Origin: an uncultured Cocleimonas sp.
GTDB taxonomy: Bacteria; Pseudomonadota; Gammaproteobacteria; Thiotrichales; Thiotrichaceae
Direction: 5' to 3'
DNA length: 64,000 bases
Assembly: GCF_947495625.1 (NCBI RefSeq)
Contig: NZ_CANLZW010000005.1
Location: 1-64,000 of the forward strand
Positions 549-62,319 of this stretch are shown here, piece after piece. A model generated the notes under the pieces. It saw only the letters and a program-made list of their open reading frames with translations. It was not told where the DNA came from and ran no database searches. The first letter of the stretch is position 1. Every line of letters begins with the position of its first letter. The position numbers and the translations under genes were made by a program.

Positions 549-1202
549 CTACGCCGCGTTTTCTATTGGCTGGTCTTCTACCTTTAAAGTGTGTAAACCA
601 CATTCGCGATCGCCTTCTGCTTTGGTCGGATCGAAGTAGTTTGTTTCGTTAGGTAGGTTGTACTTTTCGATGTACGCGTCCATCTGCTCTAATGTCCAAT
701 CCAGTAAAGGCGCTATCTTGGTTAAACCAAATGGGCCATTATCAACGTATTCCATGTCTGCGCGGACTGCGGTTTGTTCTCGGCGTACTGCGGTAAACCA
801 GACTTTATCTGTTTGTGAATTCATCGCGCGCTGGAAGGGCTCTAACTTGAATTGCTTGGTGAATGCTGCGTGACGCTCATCATCAATAGTTGGAATGCCG
901 CCGAATACAGATTCTAAACGCACCGCCGTTACTGTTGGTGTATATACAGTTACATTCAGGTTTAGTTCTTCGATTGCGGTTTCTGCAAATTCATAGGTTT
1001 CTGGTTTGTTTAAACCAGAGTCAATCCATACCACAGGAATGTCAGGTTTAACTTGTGTGAGCATGTGTAAAATGACGGTTTCATACGGGCTGAAATTTGT
1101 AGTCACAAACGCGTTTGAATCCGCTGCTAACACTGCTTTGATAATTTCCTGTGGTGATTTGCCTGTCACTTCGGCATTTAATTGTTCTATGTTGATTGAC
1201 AT
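549..1202 (-). CDS. cysH: Phosphoadenylyl-sulfate (PAPS) reductase
   Basis: A 217-residue member of the PAPS/APS reductase family, which reduces activated sulfate to sulfite with thioredoxin or glutaredoxin in the cytoplasm. The C-terminal ECGLH motif carries the catalytic cysteine (about Cys201), and the N-terminal half has the nucleotide-binding PP-loop fold with a VVWIDSG strand. The paired cysteines that bind a 4Fe-4S cluster in APS reductases are absent, which favours PAPS over APS as substrate. It lies upstream of a thioredoxin-like gene and in the same direction as cysI and cysJ. No cysDNC genes are inside the window. Confidence 0.9.
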   Translation of the reverse strand: MSINIEQLNAEVTGKSPQEIIKAVLAADSNAFVTTNFSPYETVILHMLTQVKPDIPVVWIDSGLNKPETYEFAETAIEELNLNVTVYTPTVTAVRLESVFGGIPTIDDERHAAFTKQFKLEPFQRAMNSQTDKVWFTAVRREQTAVRADMEYVDNGPFGLTKIAPLLDWTLEQMDAYIEKYNLPNETNYFDPTKAEGDRECGLHTLKVEDQPIENAA

Positions 1203-1310
1203 GATTTCTCCTAAAAATTAATGATTATGTTTGTACTGAAAAGTGCTTATTAATAAAGGTATTCAGTGCATGAATGCTATTATCATTTAAAATTATCATC
1301 AGTTAAAACG

Positions 1311-1334
1311 ATATAATTAGATTTATGTATCTAA
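1311..1334. promoter_or_regulatory. Candidate LysR/CysB operator upstream of cysH
   Basis: TTAGAT-N6-ATCTAA is a perfect inverted repeat at 1317-1334, about 110 bases upstream of the cysH start. The overlapping string ATAATTAGAT(T/A)TATG recurs in the cysJ-cysB divergent region at 5688-5702. CysB control is the obvious inference but is not proven by sequence. Confidence 0.4.
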
Positions 1335-1360
1335 CTTTTAGATATTGAGTGAAGGATGTT

Positions 1361-1410
1361 TAACGGAGAAATAAACAAGGAAATAAATGAGGAAATAAAT
1401 AAAGAAGAAG
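1361..1410. repeat. Purine-rich imperfect tandem repeat
   Basis: Imperfect units of the type GGAAATAAAYRA repeat three to four times between cysH and cysI, just before the poly-G repeat. Apart from this, the following repeat copy and the candidate operator at 1311-1334, the 1203-1723 gap shows nothing recognisable. Confidence 0.5.
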
Positions 1411-1412
1411 AT

Positions 1413-1443
1413 AAAAAAAGGCCTCAAAGTAGGGGGGGGGGGG
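1413..1443 (+). repeat. Dispersed G6 repeat, copy 1 (G-tract expanded)
   Basis: It matches the family core (GCCT-N-AAAGTAGGGGGG) but the G-tract is 12 long and the trailing GTGAC is missing. It lies 3' of cysI (minus strand), about 280 bases past the stop. Confidence 0.7.
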
Positions 1444-1723
1444 CTTTGCTTAATTGATCTATCAAGCGATAGAAGGGCTCTCTTTACATCGAGCTGATGT
1501 TTAATAAAGAAAACGAAATCTGCATGGATTTGATGGAGTACAAAGAGCAGGCTCTTTGGGGTTGAAGAAATTGAAAAGATTAAAGAGATTTCAGAATTGT
1601 AGATTAAGTAAAAGTAGATTAAGTAAAGAGAAGTGAGGGAGGCATTTTGGAATCAAAAGTTTACTGCATTCAAACTGCGCCATACCAGATATGACGCAGT
1701 CTGGGTTCTTGCTATAAGGTAAA

Positions 1724-3502
1724 TCAGTCGTGAAAATCCAGACCTTGTTTGGTTGCTTTAACATAGCCCGCTCTAATGACGTAGTCACCAAAGTGTTCAC
1801 CCTTATTTCTATTGTTAGCATAATCGGTGAGCAATAGATCCATCTCTTCGAGGATTTGTTTCTCATCCAGATTTTCTTTATAGAGTTTGCTGAGTCGATC
1901 ACCCTGATGGCTTGAGCCGAGATACACATTGTATCGACCCAATGATTTACCGATAAATCCGATCTCACCCATTACCGAACGACCACAGCCATTCGGGCAT
2001 CCTGTCATGCGGAATTTTATCTCATCATTAATCAAACCATTCTTTTCTAGAATGGGTTCTATTTTAGTGATTAAACTAGGTAAGTATCTTTCTGCTTCTG
2101 CCATTGCTAACGGACAGGTGTTTAGTGCAACACAGGCAATCGCATTACGGCGCAGTCCACTCAGGTGACTGGCATCAGCGGATAAACCATATTTGGTGAA
2201 GATCGCTTCAATACTGGCTTTGTCGTTTTCTTCGATATCGACGAGCAATACGTGTTGATTACCCGTGAGTCTGAACTTACACACACCGAGTTCTGCGATC
2301 TCTTTTAAGGCTTGTTTTTGTTGAGAGCCTTCGACGTTTTGTACGCGACCATGTTCAACAAAACATAGTAGGTGCCACTTGTCATTGGTCGCTTTATGCC
2401 AGCCAAAGTTATCTGCTGACGTTTTGAATTCAACAGGCTTTGGTGCATCAAGCTTGTAACCAAGGCGTTCGATTAACATGGTTTGGAATGTGTCTAGGCC
2501 CATGCGGTCGATGGTGTATTTTAAACGCGCCTGACTGCGGTCTGTTCGATCACCATAATCACGTTGAATTTCTACGATTTTGGTCACGACTTCAAGTAAT
2601 TGCTCTGGTTTTACATAGGCAATATCGGTCGCAAGTCTTGGGTATGTTTCTGTGCGACCAAACGTCATCGCTAGACCACCACCTACGGCAATATTAAAAC
2701 CTTGAAGCACTTCATCTTTAACGATAGCGACGATGCCCACATCATTGGTGTAAATATCACTGTCGTTATTTGGTGGAATCGCAATACCAATTTTGAATTT
2801 TTTCGGCAGATAGAGTTTGCCGTAAAGCGGTTCAACGGTTTCTTCAGGTGTGATTGAAGAAACTAGTTTTTTGCCTTCGCCCTTCTTTCCATTAGAGCCT
2901 TCATCTAACCAGATTTCATGGTAAGCACGAGATTTAGGCAACAGATGTTCGCTGATTTTTTTAGCCCATGGGAAGACCTGCGCATGAATTTTGGATTGCG
3001 TAGGGTCAGGATCACACATGACGTTTCGATTGACATCACCACAGCCAGCAATGCTGTCGAGTAATGCTTTATCCATCGCTTTGATTGTCTGCTTTAAATC
3101 AAACTTGATGATTCCATGAAACTGCACCGCTTGACGCGTCGTTAGTTTGAAATCTTTATTGCCGTACTCGTCACTGATCGCATCGAGCGCGAGCCATGCA
3201 TCTGAAGTTAAATCGCCACCAGGAATTCTGACGCGAATCATAAATGAATAAGCAGGTTCTAATTTCTTTTCCTGACGCACGATTCGCTGGTCTCTATCAT
3301 CTTGTTGATAGGTGCCGTGAAACTTGAGTAAGTAAGTGTCTTCTGCGGGAATCGATCCTGTTATTTGATCGGCAAAGGTATCGACTAAGGTTCCACGAAG
3401 GTAGTTACCTTTATCTTTTGCAACTTCCACAGGGGTGCTGTCATTGATTAACACACCCTGGTGTTTGATGAGTTCTTTGCTTGGGTCTAATACATTTTTC
3501 AT
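1724..3502 (-). CDS. cysI: Assimilatory sulfite reductase hemoprotein, beta subunit
   Basis: A 592-residue sulfite reductase hemoprotein that reduces sulfite to sulfide with electrons from the CysJ flavoprotein. It has the two ferredoxin-like/siroheme repeats and the cluster and siroheme cysteines Cys457, Cys463 (CVALNTC) and Cys502, Cys506 (CPNGC). The siroheme-contacting arginine/lysine-rich segments such as LTTRQAVQFHG are intact, and the length is normal for CysI. It lies downstream of cysJ with a 222-base gap that contains a copy of the dispersed repeat, so readthrough may be limited. Confidence 0.96.
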   Translation of the reverse strand: MKNVLDPSKELIKHQGVLINDSTPVEVAKDKGNYLRGTLVDTFADQITGSIPAEDTYLLKFHGTYQQDDRDQRIVRQEKKLEPAYSFMIRVRIPGGDLTSDAWLALDAISDEYGNKDFKLTTRQAVQFHGIIKFDLKQTIKAMDKALLDSIAGCGDVNRNVMCDPDPTQSKIHAQVFPWAKKISEHLLPKSRAYHEIWLDEGSNGKKGEGKKLVSSITPEETVEPLYGKLYLPKKFKIGIAIPPNNDSDIYTNDVGIVAIVKDEVLQGFNIAVGGGLAMTFGRTETYPRLATDIAYVKPEQLLEVVTKIVEIQRDYGDRTDRSQARLKYTIDRMGLDTFQTMLIERLGYKLDAPKPVEFKTSADNFGWHKATNDKWHLLCFVEHGRVQNVEGSQQKQALKEIAELGVCKFRLTGNQHVLLVDIEENDKASIEAIFTKYGLSADASHLSGLRRNAIACVALNTCPLAMAEAERYLPSLITKIEPILEKNGLINDEIKFRMTGCPNGCGRSVMGEIGFIGKSLGRYNVYLGSSHQGDRLSKLYKENLDEKQILEEMDLLLTDYANNRNKGEHFGDYVIRAGYVKATKQGLDFHD

Positions 3503-3677
3503 TGTTTTGTGTTAAATCATACGGAGTATTTCAGCGATATCAGTATTAACGTTTCAGCTTGTGTCTGCTGGTCACTCAATCAATGAGTGGTTAATGGTGC
3601 TAACGGTTATGATGGCGCTAAAGTTTTTTCAATATGATTATTCCTGTTCCTGTTTGTTCGTTGTTTTTAGCTTTTAA

Positions 3678-3706
3678 TAAAAAACCCCTGTAAGTAGGGG
3701 GGTGTC
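3678..3706 (+). repeat. Dispersed G6 repeat, copy 2
   Basis: CCCCTGTAAGTAGGGGGGTGTC matches the core with a GTGTC ending (the longest run shared with the consensus is AAGTAGGGGGGTG). It lies about 20 bases 3' of cysJ, in terminator orientation for the minus strand, between cysJ and cysI. Confidence 0.8.
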
Positions 3707-3724
3707 TAATACATTTTTGGTCTG

Positions 3725-5557
3725 TTAGTAAACGTCACGCTGGTATTTTTTATTGATCTTTAACTGATCGATATAGTTGTTTACACCGTCGTCATCTAAA
3801 CCTGAGTGTTTACTAATGATTTTGTGAAGCGTGTCGTGAACACCTTGTGCCAGTCTGTCGATATCACCACATACATACAGCGTCGCGCCTTGTTCAATCC
3901 ACTCAAACACTTGTGCTGATTCTTCTAGTAGCTTGTCCTGAATATAGATTTTCTCTTGTTGATCTCGAGAGAAAGCAACATTCATTTTTTCTAATGTGCC
4001 ATTCTTCAGGAAGTGCTGCCAATCCGTTTGGTATAGGAAGTCACTCTGGAAGCGTTGCTCACCAAAGAACAACCAGCTATTGCCTTTCGCTTCACGTGCT
4101 TCACGTTCGTACAAAAAGCTTCTGTAAGGTGCAACACCGGTGCCTGCACCGATCATGATGATCTTGTCTTCATTGCTTTCAGGTAATGAAAATCCGCTAT
4201 TAGGCTTGATGTGAACCGGGATTGTATCTCCCGCTTGTTTGTCGATTAACCAGTTAGAAGAGACACCAAGGTGTTTTCTATCGTTGTGATCATAGTAGAC
4301 AGGCTTGATTAAAATATGTGCTTCTTCGGTATGCACTTGCTCACTGCTGGCAATTGAATACTGACGAGAGAACAGCGGACGCAAAATATTTAATAAGTCT
4401 GCCGTCGCAATCTCACCCGGGTAATCTTGTAATAAGTCGAGCAGGTCAGAACCGTGAAGATATTGCTTTAATTGTTCTTTATCTGCAGTAAGCGCGTTTA
4501 GTGGTTCGTTGCTTACTAACTCAGCATAAGATTTTACAACTTTAGCCGTAAGATTCGCGATTTCTAATTTATGCGTTAGGGCATTGCGTAATGAGCTTGT
4601 ATCGCCTGAAACAGTCACCAACTCGGTTTCACTTGCATCTAATTGTTTGATGATTGCATCAACCAGTTCGGTATTGTTTTCTGGCAGAATCGCAATGAGA
4701 TCGCCTGGTTCGTAGCGTAGACCTTCAGCTTCTGTTGAGATTTCGATGTGGTAAGCATCTTGCTCAGAATCATCTGTGGTCAGGTTTGTAATTGCTATAA
4801 TCTCAGCGTGATACGGATTTGCTTCGCTCCAGCTTTGTGTTTCAGCAGTGTTAATCGCTTGTTTGCTATTGATGTCGATAACGACATGCTGAGCGTCATT
4901 CGATTCTGTTTTTTGATCGTTAAGCGCATCTAATTTAGAAACGATTTCCTGCTGCCAGCTTTTTGCACCTACTTCGAAATCAAGGTCTAGATCGACACGG
5001 TCATGAAAGCGTTTTGCGCCAAGTTCTTCAAATTTAGCATCAACATCAACACCTGTCTGGCAGAAGTCGTCGTAGCTAGAATCACCTAAGCCAAGTACTG
5101 CAAATTCCAGATTGTCTAATTTAGGTGCGCGGTCACTATAGATGAAGTTGTAAAACGTCAAAGCTTCATCAGGTGCTTCGCCATTACCATGAGTACTGAT
5201 CACAAGAACAACTTTCTGTTCTTTCTTTAGTTGTTGTGGTCTGTAGTCCAGTAGATTCTTTAAAGTAACATCAGCGCCTTTGGTTTTAAGTTCGGCACTT
5301 ACTGACTCTGCAATTTTTTTGCTGTTACCTGTTTGGCTGCCATACAATACCGTCACTTTTTCTGCGGTATGCAGTTGTGGGCTAGTCTGTGCGCCAGTTT
5401 GTGTACTGGATAAGTCAGTGATCTGATGCTGTAAACCCGTGTCAGCATTTGCAGATAAGCCAGAGAAATAACCACTCACCCATGCAAGCTGATTCGCATT
5501 AAGGCCTTCGACTGCTGAAGACACTTTCTGTATTTGTTGTTGGTTTAGTAATGTCAT
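3725..5557 (-). CDS. cysJ: Sulfite reductase [NADPH] flavoprotein, alpha subunit
   Basis: A 610-residue diflavin reductase that passes electrons from NADPH through FAD and FMN to CysI. An N-terminal flavodoxin domain starts with TVLYGSQTGNS (about residues 69-79). It is followed by a connecting/FAD domain with SRQYSIAS, by a GAGTGVAPYRSF pyridine-nucleotide site, and by the usual CGD and C-terminal RDVY ending. Length and domain order are typical of CysJ. It is divergently transcribed from the cysB-like gene across a 142-base gap. Confidence 0.97.
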   Translation of the reverse strand: MTLLNQQQIQKVSSAVEGLNANQLAWVSGYFSGLSANADTGLQHQITDLSSTQTGAQTSPQLHTAEKVTVLYGSQTGNSKKIAESVSAELKTKGADVTLKNLLDYRPQQLKKEQKVVLVISTHGNGEAPDEALTFYNFIYSDRAPKLDNLEFAVLGLGDSSYDDFCQTGVDVDAKFEELGAKRFHDRVDLDLDFEVGAKSWQQEIVSKLDALNDQKTESNDAQHVVIDINSKQAINTAETQSWSEANPYHAEIIAITNLTTDDSEQDAYHIEISTEAEGLRYEPGDLIAILPENNTELVDAIIKQLDASETELVTVSGDTSSLRNALTHKLEIANLTAKVVKSYAELVSNEPLNALTADKEQLKQYLHGSDLLDLLQDYPGEIATADLLNILRPLFSRQYSIASSEQVHTEEAHILIKPVYYDHNDRKHLGVSSNWLIDKQAGDTIPVHIKPNSGFSLPESNEDKIIMIGAGTGVAPYRSFLYEREAREAKGNSWLFFGEQRFQSDFLYQTDWQHFLKNGTLEKMNVAFSRDQQEKIYIQDKLLEESAQVFEWIEQGATLYVCGDIDRLAQGVHDTLHKIISKHSGLDDDGVNNYIDQLKINKKYQRDVY

Positions 5558-5676
5558 GATTATTCACTCGCTTTTATTCGCCTTTCATAAATGTTTAACT
5601 GATATATTTGCTGTCAGCATTTTGTGGAAGCTAATATCCCTTAAAATAAACAACAATAAAAGTGATTAAATTCGTT

Positions 5677-5697
5677 ATCTATATGACATAATTAGAT
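5677..5697. promoter_or_regulatory. Candidate LysR-type operator, cysJ-cysB divergent region
   Basis: ATCTA-N11-TAGAT is an inverted repeat just before the cysB-like start, in the geometry typical of LysR-type sites (T-N11-A). Part of it is shared with the region upstream of cysH. It could serve both autoregulation and cysJ activation. Confidence 0.45.
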
Positions 5698-5699
5698 AT

Positions 5700-6608
5700 A
5701 TGAAAATTACACAATTACAATTACTCAAAATTTTATTAAGCAATGGTTTAAATATTAGCGAAGCTGCTAAGCAGACCTATGTTGTGCAATCTGCCGTTAG
5801 TCGACAGCTGAGTTTGTTAGAAGATGAATTAGGGATGCCATTGTTTATTCGAAAGGGAAAACGTTTGGTAGAGCCGACGCCTCTATGTATTGATATTTGT
5901 AAAGAAATCGATCATCTGGAGCTGGCAATGGATAATATTCGTGCCGTAGCGGATGACCATCGAGATGCACGAATAGGGGAGCTACGTTTAGCCACAACTC
6001 ATATGCAGGCGAAGTATTTTCTACCTGAAGTGATTAAACAGTTTCGCGAAAAATACCCCAAGGTCAAAATACATATTCTTCAAGGTAATCCGACACAATT
6101 AGTCGATATGTTGCATAAACGAGAAGCCGATATTGCGGTATGTACCGAAGAATTAGCGGAGCATTCTGATCTGGTAAAGAATAAATGTTATGACTGGAAT
6201 CATGCATTGATCGTTCCTTCAGGTCATCCGTTAGAAAAAGGCAAGCTCAATCTTGAACGAATAGCTGAATTCCCTTTACTTACTTATGTATTCGGCTTTA
6301 CAGGTCGTACTAAAATCCATCAAACCTTCAAAGACAAAGGTCTTGAAATGGATGTAACATTCTCTGCAACCGATACTGATGTGATTAAAAGCTATGTACG
6401 ACTTGGGTTTGGTGCAGGAATCATCTCAAGAATGGCGTATTCAGAACAGAATGATAGTGATTTAGTGTTGCGGGACTTATCGCAGTTTTTTCCGAATTCT
6501 ACAACCTCGGTCGCGTATGTTAAAAGTAAGTTTATGAAAAGTTACTTACATGATTGCGTTGATTTATTGGTGGAGCATGGCCAAAAAACGATGCTTTCAG
6601 TTTCCTGA
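5700..6608 (+). CDS. cysB: CysB/Cbl-type LysR transcriptional regulator
   Basis: A 302-residue LysR-family regulator. The N-terminal winged helix (residues 1-60) reads like CysB, with SEAAKQTYVVQSAVSRQLSLL and then LGMPLFIRKGKR. The rest is a periplasmic-binding-protein-like effector domain. In the family, CysB senses N-acetylserine/O-acetylserine or sulfur anions and activates the cys genes. The divergent position beside cysJ supports this role. It is about 20 residues shorter than E. coli CysB at the C-terminus; Cbl is the alternative name. Confidence 0.85.
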   Translation: MKITQLQLLKILLSNGLNISEAAKQTYVVQSAVSRQLSLLEDELGMPLFIRKGKRLVEPTPLCIDICKEIDHLELAMDNIRAVADDHRDARIGELRLATTHMQAKYFLPEVIKQFREKYPKVKIHILQGNPTQLVDMLHKREADIAVCTEELAEHSDLVKNKCYDWNHALIVPSGHPLEKGKLNLERIAEFPLLTYVFGFTGRTKIHQTFKDKGLEMDVTFSATDTDVIKSYVRLGFGAGIISRMAYSEQNDSDLVLRDLSQFFPNSTTSVAYVKSKFMKSYLHDCVDLLVEHGQKTMLSVS

Positions 6609-6764: not shown

Positions 6765-7067
6765 ATGAAATTTTTATCAATAGCATTAAGCAGTCTTCTT
6801 TTATCTACAGCCTTTAGTGTTTCCGTTTATGCCGACGATGAGCATTCGGGTAAAGAGATTCATGATGAAAATTGTCTTAACTGCCATAAAGTTAAACACG
6901 ATGATAAATTTTATACACGTGAACAACTACGGGTTAAAGATCTTAAAGGACTTGGTTCAATGGTAAGAATGTGTGATGCCAATCTGGGTACTTCTTTGTT
7001 TGATGAAGATATGGATGAGATTACTGATTATCTAAACCAAAGCTATTACAAATTCCCTAAGAAGTAG
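6765..7067 (+). CDS. Small periplasmic cytochrome c
   Basis: A 100-residue protein with a signal peptide (residues 1 to about 23, ending SVYA) and one heme c site CLNCH (Cys37, Cys40, His41). MVRMCDANLG supplies candidate distal methionines and an extra cysteine, and the C-terminal helix MDEITDYLNQ is typical of small class I cytochromes. AAGGAG precedes the start. It lies 67 bases upstream of a half-length SOR-like gene on the same strand. Inference: it accepts electrons from a sulfur or other inorganic oxidation. The specific partner is unknown. Confidence 0.85.
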   Translation: MKFLSIALSSLLLSTAFSVSVYADDEHSGKEIHDENCLNCHKVKHDDKFYTREQLRVKDLKGLGSMVRMCDANLGTSLFDEDMDEITDYLNQSYYKFPKK

Positions 7068-7134
7068 ATTGAATTTTAGGAATTTGCCCAAATAGTTATA
7101 TTGTTATAACTAATTAGATTAACTGGAGAAAATT

Positions 7135-7545
7135 ATGTTTCACCCAATAGAAATTCCGTTTGGCTGTGTCATGTTATTCAACGTTGTAGATCTTAAAGAT
7201 GGCGTAAAAATTGAAGATGTTGAATTGACCCTCGGCGAAATGTGTAACGTTGTTAAAAATAATTATGGTGATGATAATGGCGGCTTCATCGGTGGTCAGG
7301 TATTTAAGTACGCAGGCTTTATTTCTGAAGAAGGTTCGGTAGGCGCCACTCCTGCTGAAAAAGAAAAAGCGGCGAAAGTGAAGCAGGGCGAAATTGCGAT
7401 AATTACCTACTGGAAATCTTTTGAGCAACACGAAAAATCACATGCTGATGCGTTATTCAAAGAGAAATTTAGCGAGTTAGCTGAATTCTGTGATGACACC
7501 CATGAATTAGGTTATGAAATGCTATGGCAGGGTGTTCCAGAATAA
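7135..7545 (+). CDS. Half-length SOR-like (dimeric alpha/beta barrel) protein
   Basis: A 136-residue protein without signal peptide. ITYWKSFEQHEKSH (residues 90-103) closely resembles ITYWDSWEAHEDFH in the full-length SOR homologue encoded at 18986-19921. An upstream MC (Cys37) followed by GGFIGG resembles SOR's active-site cysteine and GFSGF. The end, MLWQGVPE, resembles SOR's GPxEP iron-ligand segment, so Cys37, His99, His103 and Glu136 could match SOR's cysteine and 2-His-1-Glu iron site. The protein stops where SOR's second half would begin. It could instead be a generic ABM-type monooxygenase fold. Together with the cytochrome upstream it forms a likely two-gene operon that ends at a clear terminator. 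Homology at family level is moderately supported; activity is inference. Confidence 0.6.
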   Translation: MFHPIEIPFGCVMLFNVVDLKDGVKIEDVELTLGEMCNVVKNNYGDDNGGFIGGQVFKYAGFISEEGSVGATPAEKEKAAKVKQGEIAIITYWKSFEQHEKSHADALFKEKFSELAEFCDDTHELGYEMLWQGVPE

Positions 7546-7580: not shown

Positions 7581-7612
7581 AAGGAGTAGCTGTTAAAAGC
7601 TACTCCTTTTTT
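7581..7612 (+). terminator. Rho-independent terminator
   Basis: AAGGAGTAGCT (7581-7591) pairs perfectly with AGCTACTCCTT (7598-7608) and is followed by T-rich sequence. It ends the cytochrome/SOR-like unit. Confidence 0.9.
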
Positions 7613-18985: not shown

Positions 18986-19921
18986 TTATTTATTACCGTT
19001 TAAAATTTCTCGATTACTTTGTTCTCTGAACATCGAATCAGACATTCTTACCGTAGGCATGTGCAAACAGTTGTTTAAAACTTTTGGGCCATGCTGGAAT
19101 AATAATTCTGGCTTAACATTTACATGTGGCATCCCAGCTTGTGCAGCACCCAAAGAGTCCCATTCAACCATCACTAGATATTCAGCCGGAATGGTATAGC
19201 CTTCCCATACTTCTGCGGTGCGCTTGAGTTTGCTCCCAGAACTGTTTTTCATATCTTCCATAATAGATTCTACAGTCGCATGACCACTGCCTAATGTTGA
19301 TATGCCAATACGCTTAAGTATTTGATAACCAACCATACCGCTAGTTGCTTTCAACCCTTCCATGGTGGCAATTTCACCTTCTTCAAATTCTGCTTCAGCA
19401 CCGGGCTTAATCTTATGCGTCGCCATTACTGTAACTGAGTTACCCGAATCAACCGCGTAACCATCTGCTTTGCCTTCTGCACTTTTTCGCAACCACTGGG
19501 TCATTGAAATTAATGAAGGTAGATCACTTTTCACCACGCGATAAACAGGCTCTTCAGGCCCCTCAAGCAATACATCACCGCATCGTGCGCAGGTATCAAC
19601 GACTACATCTTCAAACGTTTCGTGGAAGTCTTCATGAGCTTCCCAGGAATCCCAGTAAGTGATTTGATCAATCCAGATATGAGAAAGCTCATCGCTCATG
19701 TCTGAACTAGCTCCCCAGCGCATACCCATCGGACAACTACCCACTTGTTTCATTAAATCAAAGCCACTGAAACCTGGTGTCAACGATGTAGCCAAGCACA
19801 TTTTTGCGCTCGCCTGTTTCATCATGCGCATAAGATTGGGATCGTTTTTCACCAGTACTTTATTAATCGCAACATAAAGTGGTGATTTTGGTTCGGCATC
19901 AAAAAGTTGTTTAACGTCCAT
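18986..19921 (-). CDS. sor: Sulfur oxygenase/reductase homologue
   Basis: A 311-residue protein with the full length and motif order of SOR, the cytoplasmic non-heme iron enzyme that disproportionates sulfur with O2 to sulfite, thiosulfate and sulfide. PLYVAIN opens the fold, and KMCLATSLTPGFSGF carries the active-site cysteine (Cys42, the Cys31 position of Acidianus SOR). His96 and His100 (AHEDFH) with Glu124 (GPEEPVY) correspond to the 2-His-1-carboxylate iron site, and CARC (Cys111/Cys114) matches the conserved second cysteine pair. A second barrel half follows, with GMVGYQILKRIGIS. AAGGA precedes the start. The gene stands alone between trhP and the lipase gene. Confidence 0.88.
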   Translation of the reverse strand: MDVKQLFDAEPKSPLYVAINKVLVKNDPNLMRMMKQASAKMCLATSLTPGFSGFDLMKQVGSCPMGMRWGASSDMSDELSHIWIDQITYWDSWEAHEDFHETFEDVVVDTCARCGDVLLEGPEEPVYRVVKSDLPSLISMTQWLRKSAEGKADGYAVDSGNSVTVMATHKIKPGAEAEFEEGEIATMEGLKATSGMVGYQILKRIGISTLGSGHATVESIMEDMKNSSGSKLKRTAEVWEGYTIPAEYLVMVEWDSLGAAQAGMPHVNVKPELLFQHGPKVLNNCLHMPTVRMSDSMFREQSNREILNGNK

Positions 19922-21657: not shown

Positions 21658-22446
21658 TTAACGACCGAGATAAGCGTCTACCTGTGACTGAGGCAATACC
21701 TGAGCCACATAACTCCCTTCTCCGGTTCGTTTTTCGATGTTTTTAACATACCCGGCAAGATGACTATCAGAACCATCCAGTAGTGAGTTATACAACTGTG
21801 TAATATCTTCATTATCGGTATAAATTTTACCGCATTCAGTCACATCATTGATGCCGTTATCCGCTTCGACAATTACTTTAGGGCATTGATTAATATCCAT
21901 CATATCCAGCTCTTCGATAAAGGCACCTACATAAAGCGCTTCGAGTTCGCTAATAGAGCCTCTTGTGACGAGTTGATCAAACTTTTCAGTGAAATACCAA
22001 CCGTATTCTGCTCCCGTATATGCACCAACATTATCATTGGTATTAGGGTCTTCCAGACCATACTTTTCGATCATCTCTTTAACCGCAGTCGTATGCTGTT
22101 GTTCGGAATCATCTATATTGCCGAAAATGGGCGAGTCAGGGTACATCTCTCCTAATTTTAGATAGACGTCACGCGCTAGCTTTTCTTCCTCACGCATAAA
22201 CATCAAATGTGTCTGTTCATTAGCATCTAGCTGATTGTCATCAATGATCTGAGTGTCGGTTTGATCACTGACCACCGCAGTAGTTGTATCGGTAGGAGTG
22301 ACTTCATGTTCAAGTACCACATTACTGTTCTGGTCTTCAGTGCTGCTAGAAGATGCCCCATTACAGCCAATTAAAGCTGTACTCATACCGGTAATCATCA
22401 CAAGTCCGGTAAATCCATTGAGTAATATTTTGTTTGAGATTTTCAT
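21658..22446 (-). CDS. DUF2202 ferritin-like lipoprotein (paralogue 1)
   Basis: A 262-residue lipoprotein (lipobox IGC, Cys28) with an acidic Ser/Thr/Asp linker and a DUF2202 domain from about residue 95. EEEKLARDVYLKLG and DSEQQHTTAVKEMIEKYG carry Glu and His residues typical of ferritin-like di-iron bundles, and four helices are expected. The start at 22446 follows GGTGA at good spacing. A second copy at 30948-31652 shares long identical stretches but lacks the lipid anchor. Function of the family is not established; metal or oxidant handling in the envelope is plausible. Confidence 0.8.
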   Translation of the reverse strand: MKISNKILLNGFTGLVMITGMSTALIGCNGASSSSTEDQNSNVVLEHEVTPTDTTTAVVSDQTDTQIIDDNQLDANEQTHLMFMREEEKLARDVYLKLGEMYPDSPIFGNIDDSEQQHTTAVKEMIEKYGLEDPNTNDNVGAYTGAEYGWYFTEKFDQLVTRGSISELEALYVGAFIEELDMMDINQCPKVIVEADNGINDVTECGKIYTDNEDITQLYNSLLDGSDSHLAGYVKNIEKRTGEGSYVAQVLPQSQVDAYLGR

Positions 22447-22693
22447 ATTATTCACCATTGTTAACATTATTTTCTACTGATAAGTCGTTTGAAAAAGGAT
22501 TCTCTAAATATCAGTTGTTTTTTTTGTAGCCCTGTAAATCTGACCATTAAAGTCTATGCCTGACGCATCTATTAGCCATTGATATTGCGCAAATATAATG
22601 AGCAAGTAGATGAACGGTAAGGTTATTTTTAGTAAATTTGATTTAAGTCTAGATATAGAAAAAGAATTCTGGAATCAGATGTATTTGAGTGAT

Positions 22694-30947: not shown

Positions 30948-31652
30948 TTAACGCCCTAACATTTTATCCACTTCTGCCTGTGGTAAAACTTGCGCCTGAT
31001 AACTGCCTTTACCCGTGTATTTTTCGATGTTCTTCACATAACCTGCAAGGTGGCTATCAGAGCCATCTAGCAAGAACCCATATAGTTTCTGCGCATCTGC
31101 GTTATCGGTATAAATTTTGCCACACTCACTGACATCGTTAATGCCGTTATCGGCTTCTACAATGACTTTTGGACATTGATTGATATCCTGCATATCCAGC
31201 TCTTCAATAAATGCACCAACATACAAAGCTTCAAGCTCACTAATAGAAGCACGCTTTACTAATAGATTATATTTTTCGGTGAAATATTCTCCGTAATCTT
31301 TACCGGTATATGCGCCGACATTGTCATTGGTATTCGGGTCTTCAAAACCATACTTTTCGATCATGTCTTTAACGGCCATCGTATGTTTCTGCTCGGAGTC
31401 ATCAATCTTGCCAAAAATACGTGAGTCAGGGTACATCTCGCCCAGTTTCAAATACACATCACGCGCAAGCTTTTCTTCTTCGCGCATAAACATCAGATGT
31501 GCCTGCTCATTCTTATCCAGAGTCATGGTCTTGGTAGTGGCTTGATTGTTTTTAGAAAAGGCTTTTCCGCCGCGTGCCATCGCACTACTAGTGCCAGCAA
31601 TAATAGCGAGCCCTACAAGACCAGTAAGTAAAGTTTGATTTAAGGTTTTCAT
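30948..31652 (-). CDS. DUF2202 ferritin-like periplasmic protein (paralogue 2)
   Basis: A 234-residue protein with a cleavable signal peptide (ending SSAMA near residue 26) instead of the lipobox of paralogue 1. The DUF2202 domain (about 50-234) has the same EEEKLARDVYLKLGEMYPDS and EELDMQDINQCPKVIVEADN segments, including two conserved cysteines. The acidic linker of the other copy is absent. The pair probably arose by duplication, then diverged in localisation. Function is unknown. Confidence 0.8.
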   Translation of the reverse strand: MKTLNQTLLTGLVGLAIIAGTSSAMARGGKAFSKNNQATTKTMTLDKNEQAHLMFMREEEKLARDVYLKLGEMYPDSRIFGKIDDSEQKHTMAVKDMIEKYGFEDPNTNDNVGAYTGKDYGEYFTEKYNLLVKRASISELEALYVGAFIEELDMQDINQCPKVIVEADNGINDVSECGKIYTDNADAQKLYGFLLDGSDSHLAGYVKNIEKYTGKGSYQAQVLPQAEVDKMLGR

Positions 31653-60903: not shown

Positions 60904-62319
60904 ATGAAACTGACTAAAACACTAATCGCCACTGCTTTGACATTTTTTTCTTATAATGCTTTCGCGAGTGAGAATGAAAATAATGCGCATGAGGAGGGGG
61001 AGAAATTATACCAGGCGCAGTGTGAGTCTTGCCATGGAGCTACGGGCGGTATGGATATTGATAAACGTATTGCGCCACCGATTGCGGGCGTTAGGATGCA
61101 CTACGTTAGCGTTCATCCGGATAAGGATGCGTTTGTTGCTGCGGTTAGCGGCTGGCTGGCGAGTCAGGATGAGGCTAAAAGCCTGATGCCTGGGGCGATT
61201 CAACGATTTAAACTGATGCCACCCCTTGAGATTGCGCTTGAGGATGCTGAAAAAATTGCAGCCTATATCTATGAAGGTGATATTGAAAAGCTTGAGGGCT
61301 TTGATAAACACGTTGAAGAGATGCATGGCAAAGGTATGCAGGGAATGACCTGTAATGAAATGCAAGGCAAAGGCCAAGATGAGGATCAAGAACAAGGTCA
61401 GGGTCAAAGCCAAGGTCAGGGAATGAATTGTAAAGGCATGCATGGCAAAGGCATGTACGGAAAAGGTCAGGGAATGCATGGCAAGGGTATGAACGGAAAG
61501 GGTATGCAAGGAAATGGTCAGGGAATGTATTGCAAAGGCATGCACGGAATGGGTCAGGGAATGTATGGCAAAGGTATGAACGGAAAGGCTATGCACGGAA
61601 TGGGTAAAGGAATGCATGGCAATAATATGCATGGAATGAATATGCCAAATATGGGCAATATGGCAGGTAATGGAATGCACGGCATGATGCCTAAAATGGG
61701 TACTAAGCCTCGTGGACCTGGAATCTCACCTGCTGATATGAAAGCCAAATTGATGCAACAGTTTAATCTTTCTGCGGAACAGATGGCGAAAATGGAAACC
61801 CTGATGCAGGAGAAAAGCGCCACCATGCAATCGTTAAGTCAGCAACAGCACGCTTTAAAACAGAAATTCATGGCACTTGATACCAGCAGCCCAAGTTATA
61901 AAGCAGATATCTTTGCTCTGGCAAAAGAGGAAGCAACACTGGCAAGCCGCAAGACAGTCGAAAAAGGTGAAATGCGCTTTAAAATGGATTCACTGTTAAG
62001 CCCAGAGCAACGTCAAAGGTTCGCACAGATGAGAGCCAGAAAAACCGAAATGAAACAGCGTATGCGTCAAAGAATACATCACAGTATGAAAAACCGAATG
62101 AATCAAGGTATGAATAACGGAATGCCATCAAACGGAATGCCGAATATGAGTATGCCTTCAATGCGTATGCCATCTAGTGAAATGCCGTCATGGGAAATGT
62201 ACCAAGGCCAAATGCCAGAGATGAAAATGCCAACTATTGGCAATCCTCCACTGTCTATCCCTGAAATGGAAAAGCCAGAAGCGACAGCTCCAGAAGCAAC
62301 ACCGCCAAAGAGTGAGTAA
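60904..62319 (+). CDS. Cytochrome c/Met-rich/Spy-like fusion protein
   Basis: A 471-residue periplasmic protein. A signal peptide (about 1-21) precedes a cytochrome c domain with CESCH (Cys40, Cys43, His44) and a candidate distal Met (LMPP, Met105). Residues 140-265 are Met/Gly/Lys/His-rich (GMHGKGMYGKG-type repeats with extra cysteines), typical of copper or other metal binding. Residues 275-395 contain two LSxEQ motifs (LSAEQ 289-293, LSPEQ 365-369) and a helix pair like Spy/CpxP metal-sensing chaperones. The tail is Met/Pro-rich. AGGA precedes ATG. It is a fusion I do not recognise; metal sensing, scavenging or redox transfer is inference. Confidence 0.85.
   Translation: MKLTKTLIATALTFFSYNAFASENENNAHEEGEKLYQAQCESCHGATGGMDIDKRIAPPIAGVRMHYVSVHPDKDAFVAAVSGWLASQDEAKSLMPGAIQRFKLMPPLEIALEDAEKIAAYIYEGDIEKLEGFDKHVEEMHGKGMQGMTCNEMQGKGQDEDQEQGQGQSQGQGMNCKGMHGKGMYGKGQGMHGKGMNGKGMQGNGQGMYCKGMHGMGQGMYGKGMNGKAMHGMGKGMHGNNMHGMNMPNMGNMAGNGMHGMMPKMGTKPRGPGISPADMKAKLMQQFNLSAEQMAKMETLMQEKSATMQSLSQQQHALKQKFMALDTSSPSYKADIFALAKEEATLASRKTVEKGEMRFKMDSLLSPEQRQRFAQMRARKTEMKQRMRQRIHHSMKNRMNQGMNNGMPSNGMPNMSMPSMRMPSSEMPSWEMYQGQMPEMKMPTIGNPPLSIPEMEKPEATAPEATPPKSE

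Follow-up and report, generated by a model that had tools for sequence, protein, structure and literature searches.

The window, that is, the whole stretch of 64,000 nucleotides that was analysed, comes from an uncultured Cocleimonas sp. and contains, close to one end, two short genes that lie on the same strand and 67 bases apart. The first (6765-7067, +) encodes a small mono-heme c-type cytochrome of 100 amino acids, with a signal-like N terminus, one CXXCH motif and weak matches to the Cytochrome_CBB3 and Cytochrom_C models. The second (7135-7545, +) encodes a single-domain protein of 136 amino acids which resembles half of a sulfur oxygenase reductase (SOR) and which we call half-SOR; this assignment draws on the open reading frame, family alignments, a PDB search in which SOR chains were the top matches and a structural model with the ABM fold. 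A strong terminator-like hairpin with an 11-pair stem, a 6-base loop and a T-rich tail (7581-7608, +) lies 3' of the half-SOR gene, and a hairpin search found no terminator-like site between the two genes. The gene layout of the original prediction, with a hairpin after the second gene only, is thus borne out.

The window holds several other features. Just upstream of the two genes (549-6608), CysH-, CysI- and CysJ-like genes of assimilatory sulfate reduction are accompanied by the gene of a LysR regulator; a LysR gene also adjoins half-SOR in several relatives that have no cytochrome there. A full-length SOR gene (18986-19921, -; PF07682 E-value 2.8e-64) is located 11 kb from half-SOR. Its product is close to the recently solved structure 9rdn (E-value 4.7e-158) and approximately 30-34% identical to the SORs of four other loci (L117-L120); at one of these (L117, genome G088), a sulfide:quinone oxidoreductase-like protein (70-1362) is encoded beside the SOR gene. 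Two similar and apparently secreted proteins (21658-22467 and 30948-31652, both -; EQ.HLMFMREEEKLARDVYLKLGEMYPDS), which are likely paralogues, are encoded about 8.5 kb apart. Finally, in the product of 60904-62319 (+) a CXXCH segment at the N terminus precedes a long repeat rich in Met, Gly, His and Lys (MHGKGM...), and this protein may perhaps bind metal.

Taken alone, the window's half-SOR is a weak match to the SOR model PF07682 (E-value 0.03; 13.6 bits, with the cut-off at 25), and its likeness to SOR therefore had to be judged at the level of the family. Even the family member with the best E-value scores 21.6 bits against PF07682, which is still below that cut-off, and a model search found no NCBIfam match for the window's protein. 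When a profile of 28 family members was compared with all PDB sequences, however, the eight best matches were SOR chains (best E-value 3.2e-6, 6m35), and the match spans SOR residues 6-130 only; a profile of 48 members repeated this result. A profile-profile comparison (hhalign) of half-SOR with SOR gave an E-value of 2.8e-6, and when the two halves of SOR were taken separately, the N-terminal half gave 6.5e-6 versus 0.018 for the C-terminal half. Individual proteins can also be linked directly, as in a BLASTP alignment of one half-SOR (L126) with one SOR (L121; E-value 5e-7) in which the cysteine, the HxxxH motif, a further cysteine and E-x-x-Y/F are all aligned. The resemblance of ITYWKSFEQHEKSH to ITYWDSWEAHEDFH in the window's SOR, from which the original prediction started, consequently exceeds chance in the PDB-wide, profile-profile and BLASTP comparisons alike. 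These alignments show that half-SOR is remotely but clearly homologous to the catalytic half at the N terminus of SOR.

The alignments pair C37, H99, H103 and E124-x-x-Y127 of half-SOR with C31, H86, H90 and E114-x-x-Y117 of SOR. In the SOR of Sulfurisphaera tokodaii, the iron ligands are His86, His90 and Glu114, and the activity of the C31A, H86A, H90A and E114A mutants was undetectable, while C101A and C104A retain about a tenth of activity (PMC7398979). Among 126 distinct half-SOR sequences, the counterparts of the catalytic cysteine (Cys37, codon 7243-7245, +, which hhalign also aligns with the SOR cysteine) and of the two histidine ligands (His99, 7429-7431, +; His103, 7441-7443, +) are invariant, as are K41, W93, E100 and S102. 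The counterpart of the third ligand, Glu124 (7504-7506, +), occurs in all 125 sequences that are complete there, and its E-x-x-Y aligns with E114-P-L-Y117; Y127 is likewise invariant wherever the sequence is complete. Judged by alignment, the half-SOR family keeps every residue shown to be essential in SOR, and the idea of a half-length SOR-like protein with the Cys/His/His/Glu set is upheld. One detail of that idea is not: the ligand glutamate had been sought near the terminal WQGVPE, but the glutamate that is aligned and invariant is E124, and the terminal E136 can be ruled out as an iron ligand by its lack of conservation in the 126 sequences. C119 is kept in 122 of the 126 proteins and replaced in four, and has no second cysteine beside it.

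Half-SOR belongs to a family of single-domain SOR relatives that apparently has yet to be described; a literature search for half-length or phage-borne SORs turned up full-length SORs or reference-list mentions alone. Relatives with 72-92% identity to the window's protein occur in genomes of the same genus and family, and others with 36-43% identity in five more distant genomes. Of 232 Gammaproteobacteria genomes searched with a profile, 47 contained the family, and a scan of GTDB genomes found at least 543 stretches that encode it, with named carriers that include Cocleimonas flava, Thiothrix, Candidatus Thiodiazotropha, a SUP05-cluster bacterium, a Candidatus Ruthturnera MAG and Ectothiorhodospiraceae; four members come from outside the Gammaproteobacteria. 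The family divides into two subfamilies, one being that of the window (GEMCNVVKN) and the other having LCENVKTYHSDT; they occur together in a few genomes. The gene is retained in a genome of only about 1 Mb (G161). At one locus (L163, genome G441), a complete half-SOR gene (1432-1953) is immediately followed by part of another copy (1968-2129), as if by tandem duplication. Clustering of the neighbours of the 126 half-SOR loci revealed no conserved bacterial operon or neighbours, and a search of a plasmid collection gave no match. We also considered Alvin_1688 of A. vinosum, termed an "antibiotic biosynthesis monooxygenase" in a transcriptome paper, and set it aside: its neighbours form a transport system, and nothing tied it to the half-SOR family.

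The distribution of the family follows that of sulfur oxidation genes. Of the 232 sampled genomes, 81 have dsrB (counted where it exceeded the cut-off or was cut by a contig edge) and 99 have soxB. Each of the 47 half-SOR genomes has at least one of the two genes, as do 107 genomes of the sample overall. The association is strong with dsrB (43 of 47, one-sided Fisher p 1e-19) and with soxB (44 of 47, p 3e-16), and among soxB genomes half-SOR occurs in 40 of 73 with dsrB versus 4 of 26 without it (p 5e-4), although these p values overstate the independence of the data because both genes are markers of a lifestyle and the genomes are related. The sample represents nonphototrophic sulfur oxidizers, since no genome with pufM had dsrB and pufM was absent from the order compared.

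The family is also carried by viruses. Half-SOR was found on 26 viral contigs, 25 of them in a scan of IMG/VR and one (L199) in a scan for dsrC, and the viral proteins keep all four catalytic residues wherever they are complete. Most of them cluster together beside the window's subfamily and a few are placed elsewhere. The flanks that were scanned (L173, L181 and L185) encode T4-type gp32, a tail tube, a tail protein and a DnaB-type helicase; on these flanks, half-SOR is a phage auxiliary metabolic gene, that is, an intact metabolic gene of host type among genes of phage structure and replication. A half-SOR from these phages, used as a query, had no match in PHROGs and none in 50,697 GenBank phage records.

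In 7 of the 25 IMG/VR records, a protein of the DsrC family (PF04358) is encoded 122 to 905 bases upstream of half-SOR, and with L199 there are eight viral contigs that have both genes. The phage DsrC-type protein ends in GLPKPTGC(V/I) and lacks a second C-terminal cysteine. Among 80 viral contigs with a dsrC-type gene, the fetched flank contained half-SOR in 7, so that half-SOR marks a subgroup of them. In nine other contigs (L178, L181, L183-L188 and L192), half-SOR is adjoined, and mostly abutted, by a gene for a Rieske-type ring-hydroxylating oxygenase which had no match in PHROGs; many of these contigs also have an ORF of about 108 amino acids directly upstream, lipoprotein-like in character. 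They have an IscA-like gene nearby as well; in ten viral contigs such a gene is no more than about 1.2 kb away from half-SOR, but this is weak evidence since IscA and NifU are already known as common genes of sulfur phages (PMC8190135). The suggested tie to the oxidation of reduced sulfur is nonetheless well founded, both in the 47 bacterial genomes and in the phage copies near a dsrC-type gene.

An AlphaFold model of half-SOR made with 48 sequences had a mean pLDDT of 87.7 (another model had 78.7) and predicts the ABM, or dimeric alpha-beta barrel, fold with a ferredoxin-like beta-alpha-beta-beta-alpha-beta domain. Both histidines are on a helix (96-104) and E124 is on the last strand (119-128) of the model. 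Its closest structural matches are the ABM oxygenases and cyclases SnoaB, RslO4 and OAC (Z 12-13), with RslO4 superimposing at Z 13.3 and an rmsd of 1.5 over 97 residues. SOR was not among the best 50 structural matches listed, but small ABM proteins take up these lists, and its absence from them is therefore uninformative either way. Because SOR builds its barrel within one chain, a homodimer of half-SOR would make an equivalent barrel, with two sites.

The reading that we prefer, and to which we give a probability of roughly 0.55, is that half-SOR is a cytoplasmic homodimeric iron protein which acts on sulfane sulfur alongside reverse-Dsr; its reaction, iron binding, oligomeric state and substrate we infer. 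Half-SOR would homodimerize, its two ferredoxin-like halves forming the barrel that SOR forms from one chain, and would presumably reside in the cytoplasm. In each subunit, H99, H103 and E124 would coordinate one non-heme iron, and sulfane sulfur would be carried as a persulfide on C37. Oxygen-dependent oxidation (or disproportionation) of this sulfur would then yield sulfite or thiosulfate beside reverse-Dsr, and the adjacent cytochrome would have no part in the mechanism. Half-SOR would thus plausibly work like SOR.

Several observations count against an oxygenase of sulfur. A protein that served some other need of sulfur oxidizers would co-occur with dsrB and soxB in the same manner. The half-SOR sequences have neither the second half of SOR nor the chimney helices nor C104, and even C119 is not strictly retained. 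Moreover, no conserved neighbours accompany the gene in bacteria, and many of its hosts live at low oxygen. Half-SOR might instead be an iron-containing carrier or sensor of persulfide and not an oxygenase, with C37 loaded from the TusA/DsrE/DsrC relay and with an iron that is structural or redox-sensing. The co-occurrence with dsrB and the nearby dsrC-type gene on phage contigs fit a partner of such a relay, and several hosts, for example the SUP05-cluster bacterium, are known from low-oxygen waters. A pure carrier, however, needs the cysteine alone, whereas the invariant His-x3-His and Glu make up the complete iron site of SOR, the loss of which abolishes catalysis in that enzyme. We consider a carrier or sensor unlikely.

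The structural matches might instead suggest an ordinary cofactor-free ABM enzyme (a monooxygenase, cyclase or isomerase with an organic substrate) that resembles SOR only through a shared ancestry of the fold, and its nearest neighbours in structure are indeed SnoaB, RslO4 and OAC. The ABM sequence model, however, is the weaker match: the best E-value over 28 half-SOR members is 0.026 for PF03992 versus 1e-4 for the SOR model PF07682. Generic ABM ancestry also fails to explain why exactly the four residues essential to SOR should be invariant, which argues against the shared-fold explanation and makes it quite improbable.

A related proposal is that half-SOR is an ABM protein of the IsdG type, which binds or degrades heme and recycles heme or iron in sulfur oxidizers rich in cytochromes. 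The fold is the same, IsdI and IsdG chains appear among the fold matches and as weak PDB sequence matches (E-values 0.5-0.8), and in the window half-SOR is preceded by a cytochrome c gene. The invariant N16, W93 and H103 could mimic the Asn/Trp/His set of IsdG. SOR chains nevertheless outscore the IsdG chains by far, and the known chemistry of IsdG makes no use of C37, H99 or E124; furthermore, the adjacency of the cytochrome is not conserved, and the phage copies are near dsrC-type, IscA and Rieske genes. Such a role in heme metabolism seems to us very improbable.

The conservation of the cytochrome also bears on the suggestion, made in the original prediction, that the two genes constitute a module for reduced sulfur oxidation; in such a module, the cytochrome would take the electrons. 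The close spacing on one strand and the single shared terminator favour such a module, as does the same gene order in Cocleimonas flava, but the cytochrome is directly upstream at only 2 of the 126 half-SOR loci, namely those of the window and of C. flava. Close relatives (84-91% identity; L003 and L005) carry other genes there, for example KdsB-like or LysR-type, and the cytochrome is one of a broad family whose members lie elsewhere in 41 of 57 relatives, some of them without half-SOR. The signal-like segment, as read from the sequence, would put the cytochrome in the periplasm, and the window's half-SOR has no such segment. Since the pairing is not conserved and the cytochrome has this segment, the module is unsupported and we find it hardly credible. 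Absence of the pair and of its conserved Cys/His/Glu from other genomes had been named as evidence against the proposal: the pair is indeed nearly absent, but the protein and its residues recur throughout the family. The cytochrome and half-SOR are best read as a local neighbourhood, possibly co-transcribed, and not as conserved partners.

With the preferred reading, a sulfane sulfur-oxidizing iron protein, a broader view can tentatively be put forward. Half-SOR could represent another type of iron-dependent sulfur oxygenase, widespread and built as a single-domain homodimer, that operates next to reverse-Dsr in mesophilic sulfur oxidizers, that T4-like phages of these bacteria carry with dsrC as a hitherto unrecognized sulfur gene, and that is perhaps a living counterpart of the unit behind the two-half SOR. 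The oxidation of cytoplasmic sulfane sulfur in neutrophilic sulfur oxidizers (SUP05, Thiothrix, and the symbionts of clams and mussels) is currently described in terms of rDsr and sHdr; a conserved SOR-like iron protein that roughly half of the sampled dsrB or soxB genomes encode (47 of 107), that is retained even in the genome of about 1 Mb and that phages carry would extend this description by one step. It would also offer a small mesophilic homologue of SOR, with the same four essential residues, in which the mechanism could be dissected without the 24-mer, and would suggest what a gene beside dsrC in phages may do.

Half-SOR can be compared with several known systems. To the ABM or dimeric alpha-beta barrel proteins it is alike in size and in predicted fold (RslO4 and SnoaB being the nearest), but unlike ABM oxygenases such as the cofactor-free SnoaB it has the invariant Cys/His/His/Glu set of SOR, and its sequence match to PF03992 is weak. 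With the heme-degrading monooxygenases IsdG and IsdI it shares the fold and, at possibly equivalent positions, N, W and H, but its additional invariant C37, H99 and E124 are typical of SOR. Like the phage sulfur genes dsrA, dsrC/tusE, soxC, soxD and soxYZ (PMC8190135; PMC4164917), it is found on phages of the sulfur-oxidizer type, and it is absent from the passages searched in those two papers. Half-SOR falls outside the SOR family in the strict sense, since its length, its model score and its lack of a second cysteine all set it apart: it has 136-150 amino acids versus about 310, falls below the Pfam and NCBIfam thresholds, is without the second half, the chimney helices and a counterpart of C104, and has, for the C101/C104 pair, the single C119, which is nearest to C101. 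It is far commoner than SOR in our sample (47 versus 9 of 232 genomes, with true SOR overlapping half-SOR in 6) and is found on viral contigs too. What it has in common with SOR (PF07682, NF047630; 2cb2, 6m35, 9rdn) are the equivalents of Cys31, His86, His90 and Glu114, together with the N, W, GF and E-x-x-Y positions.
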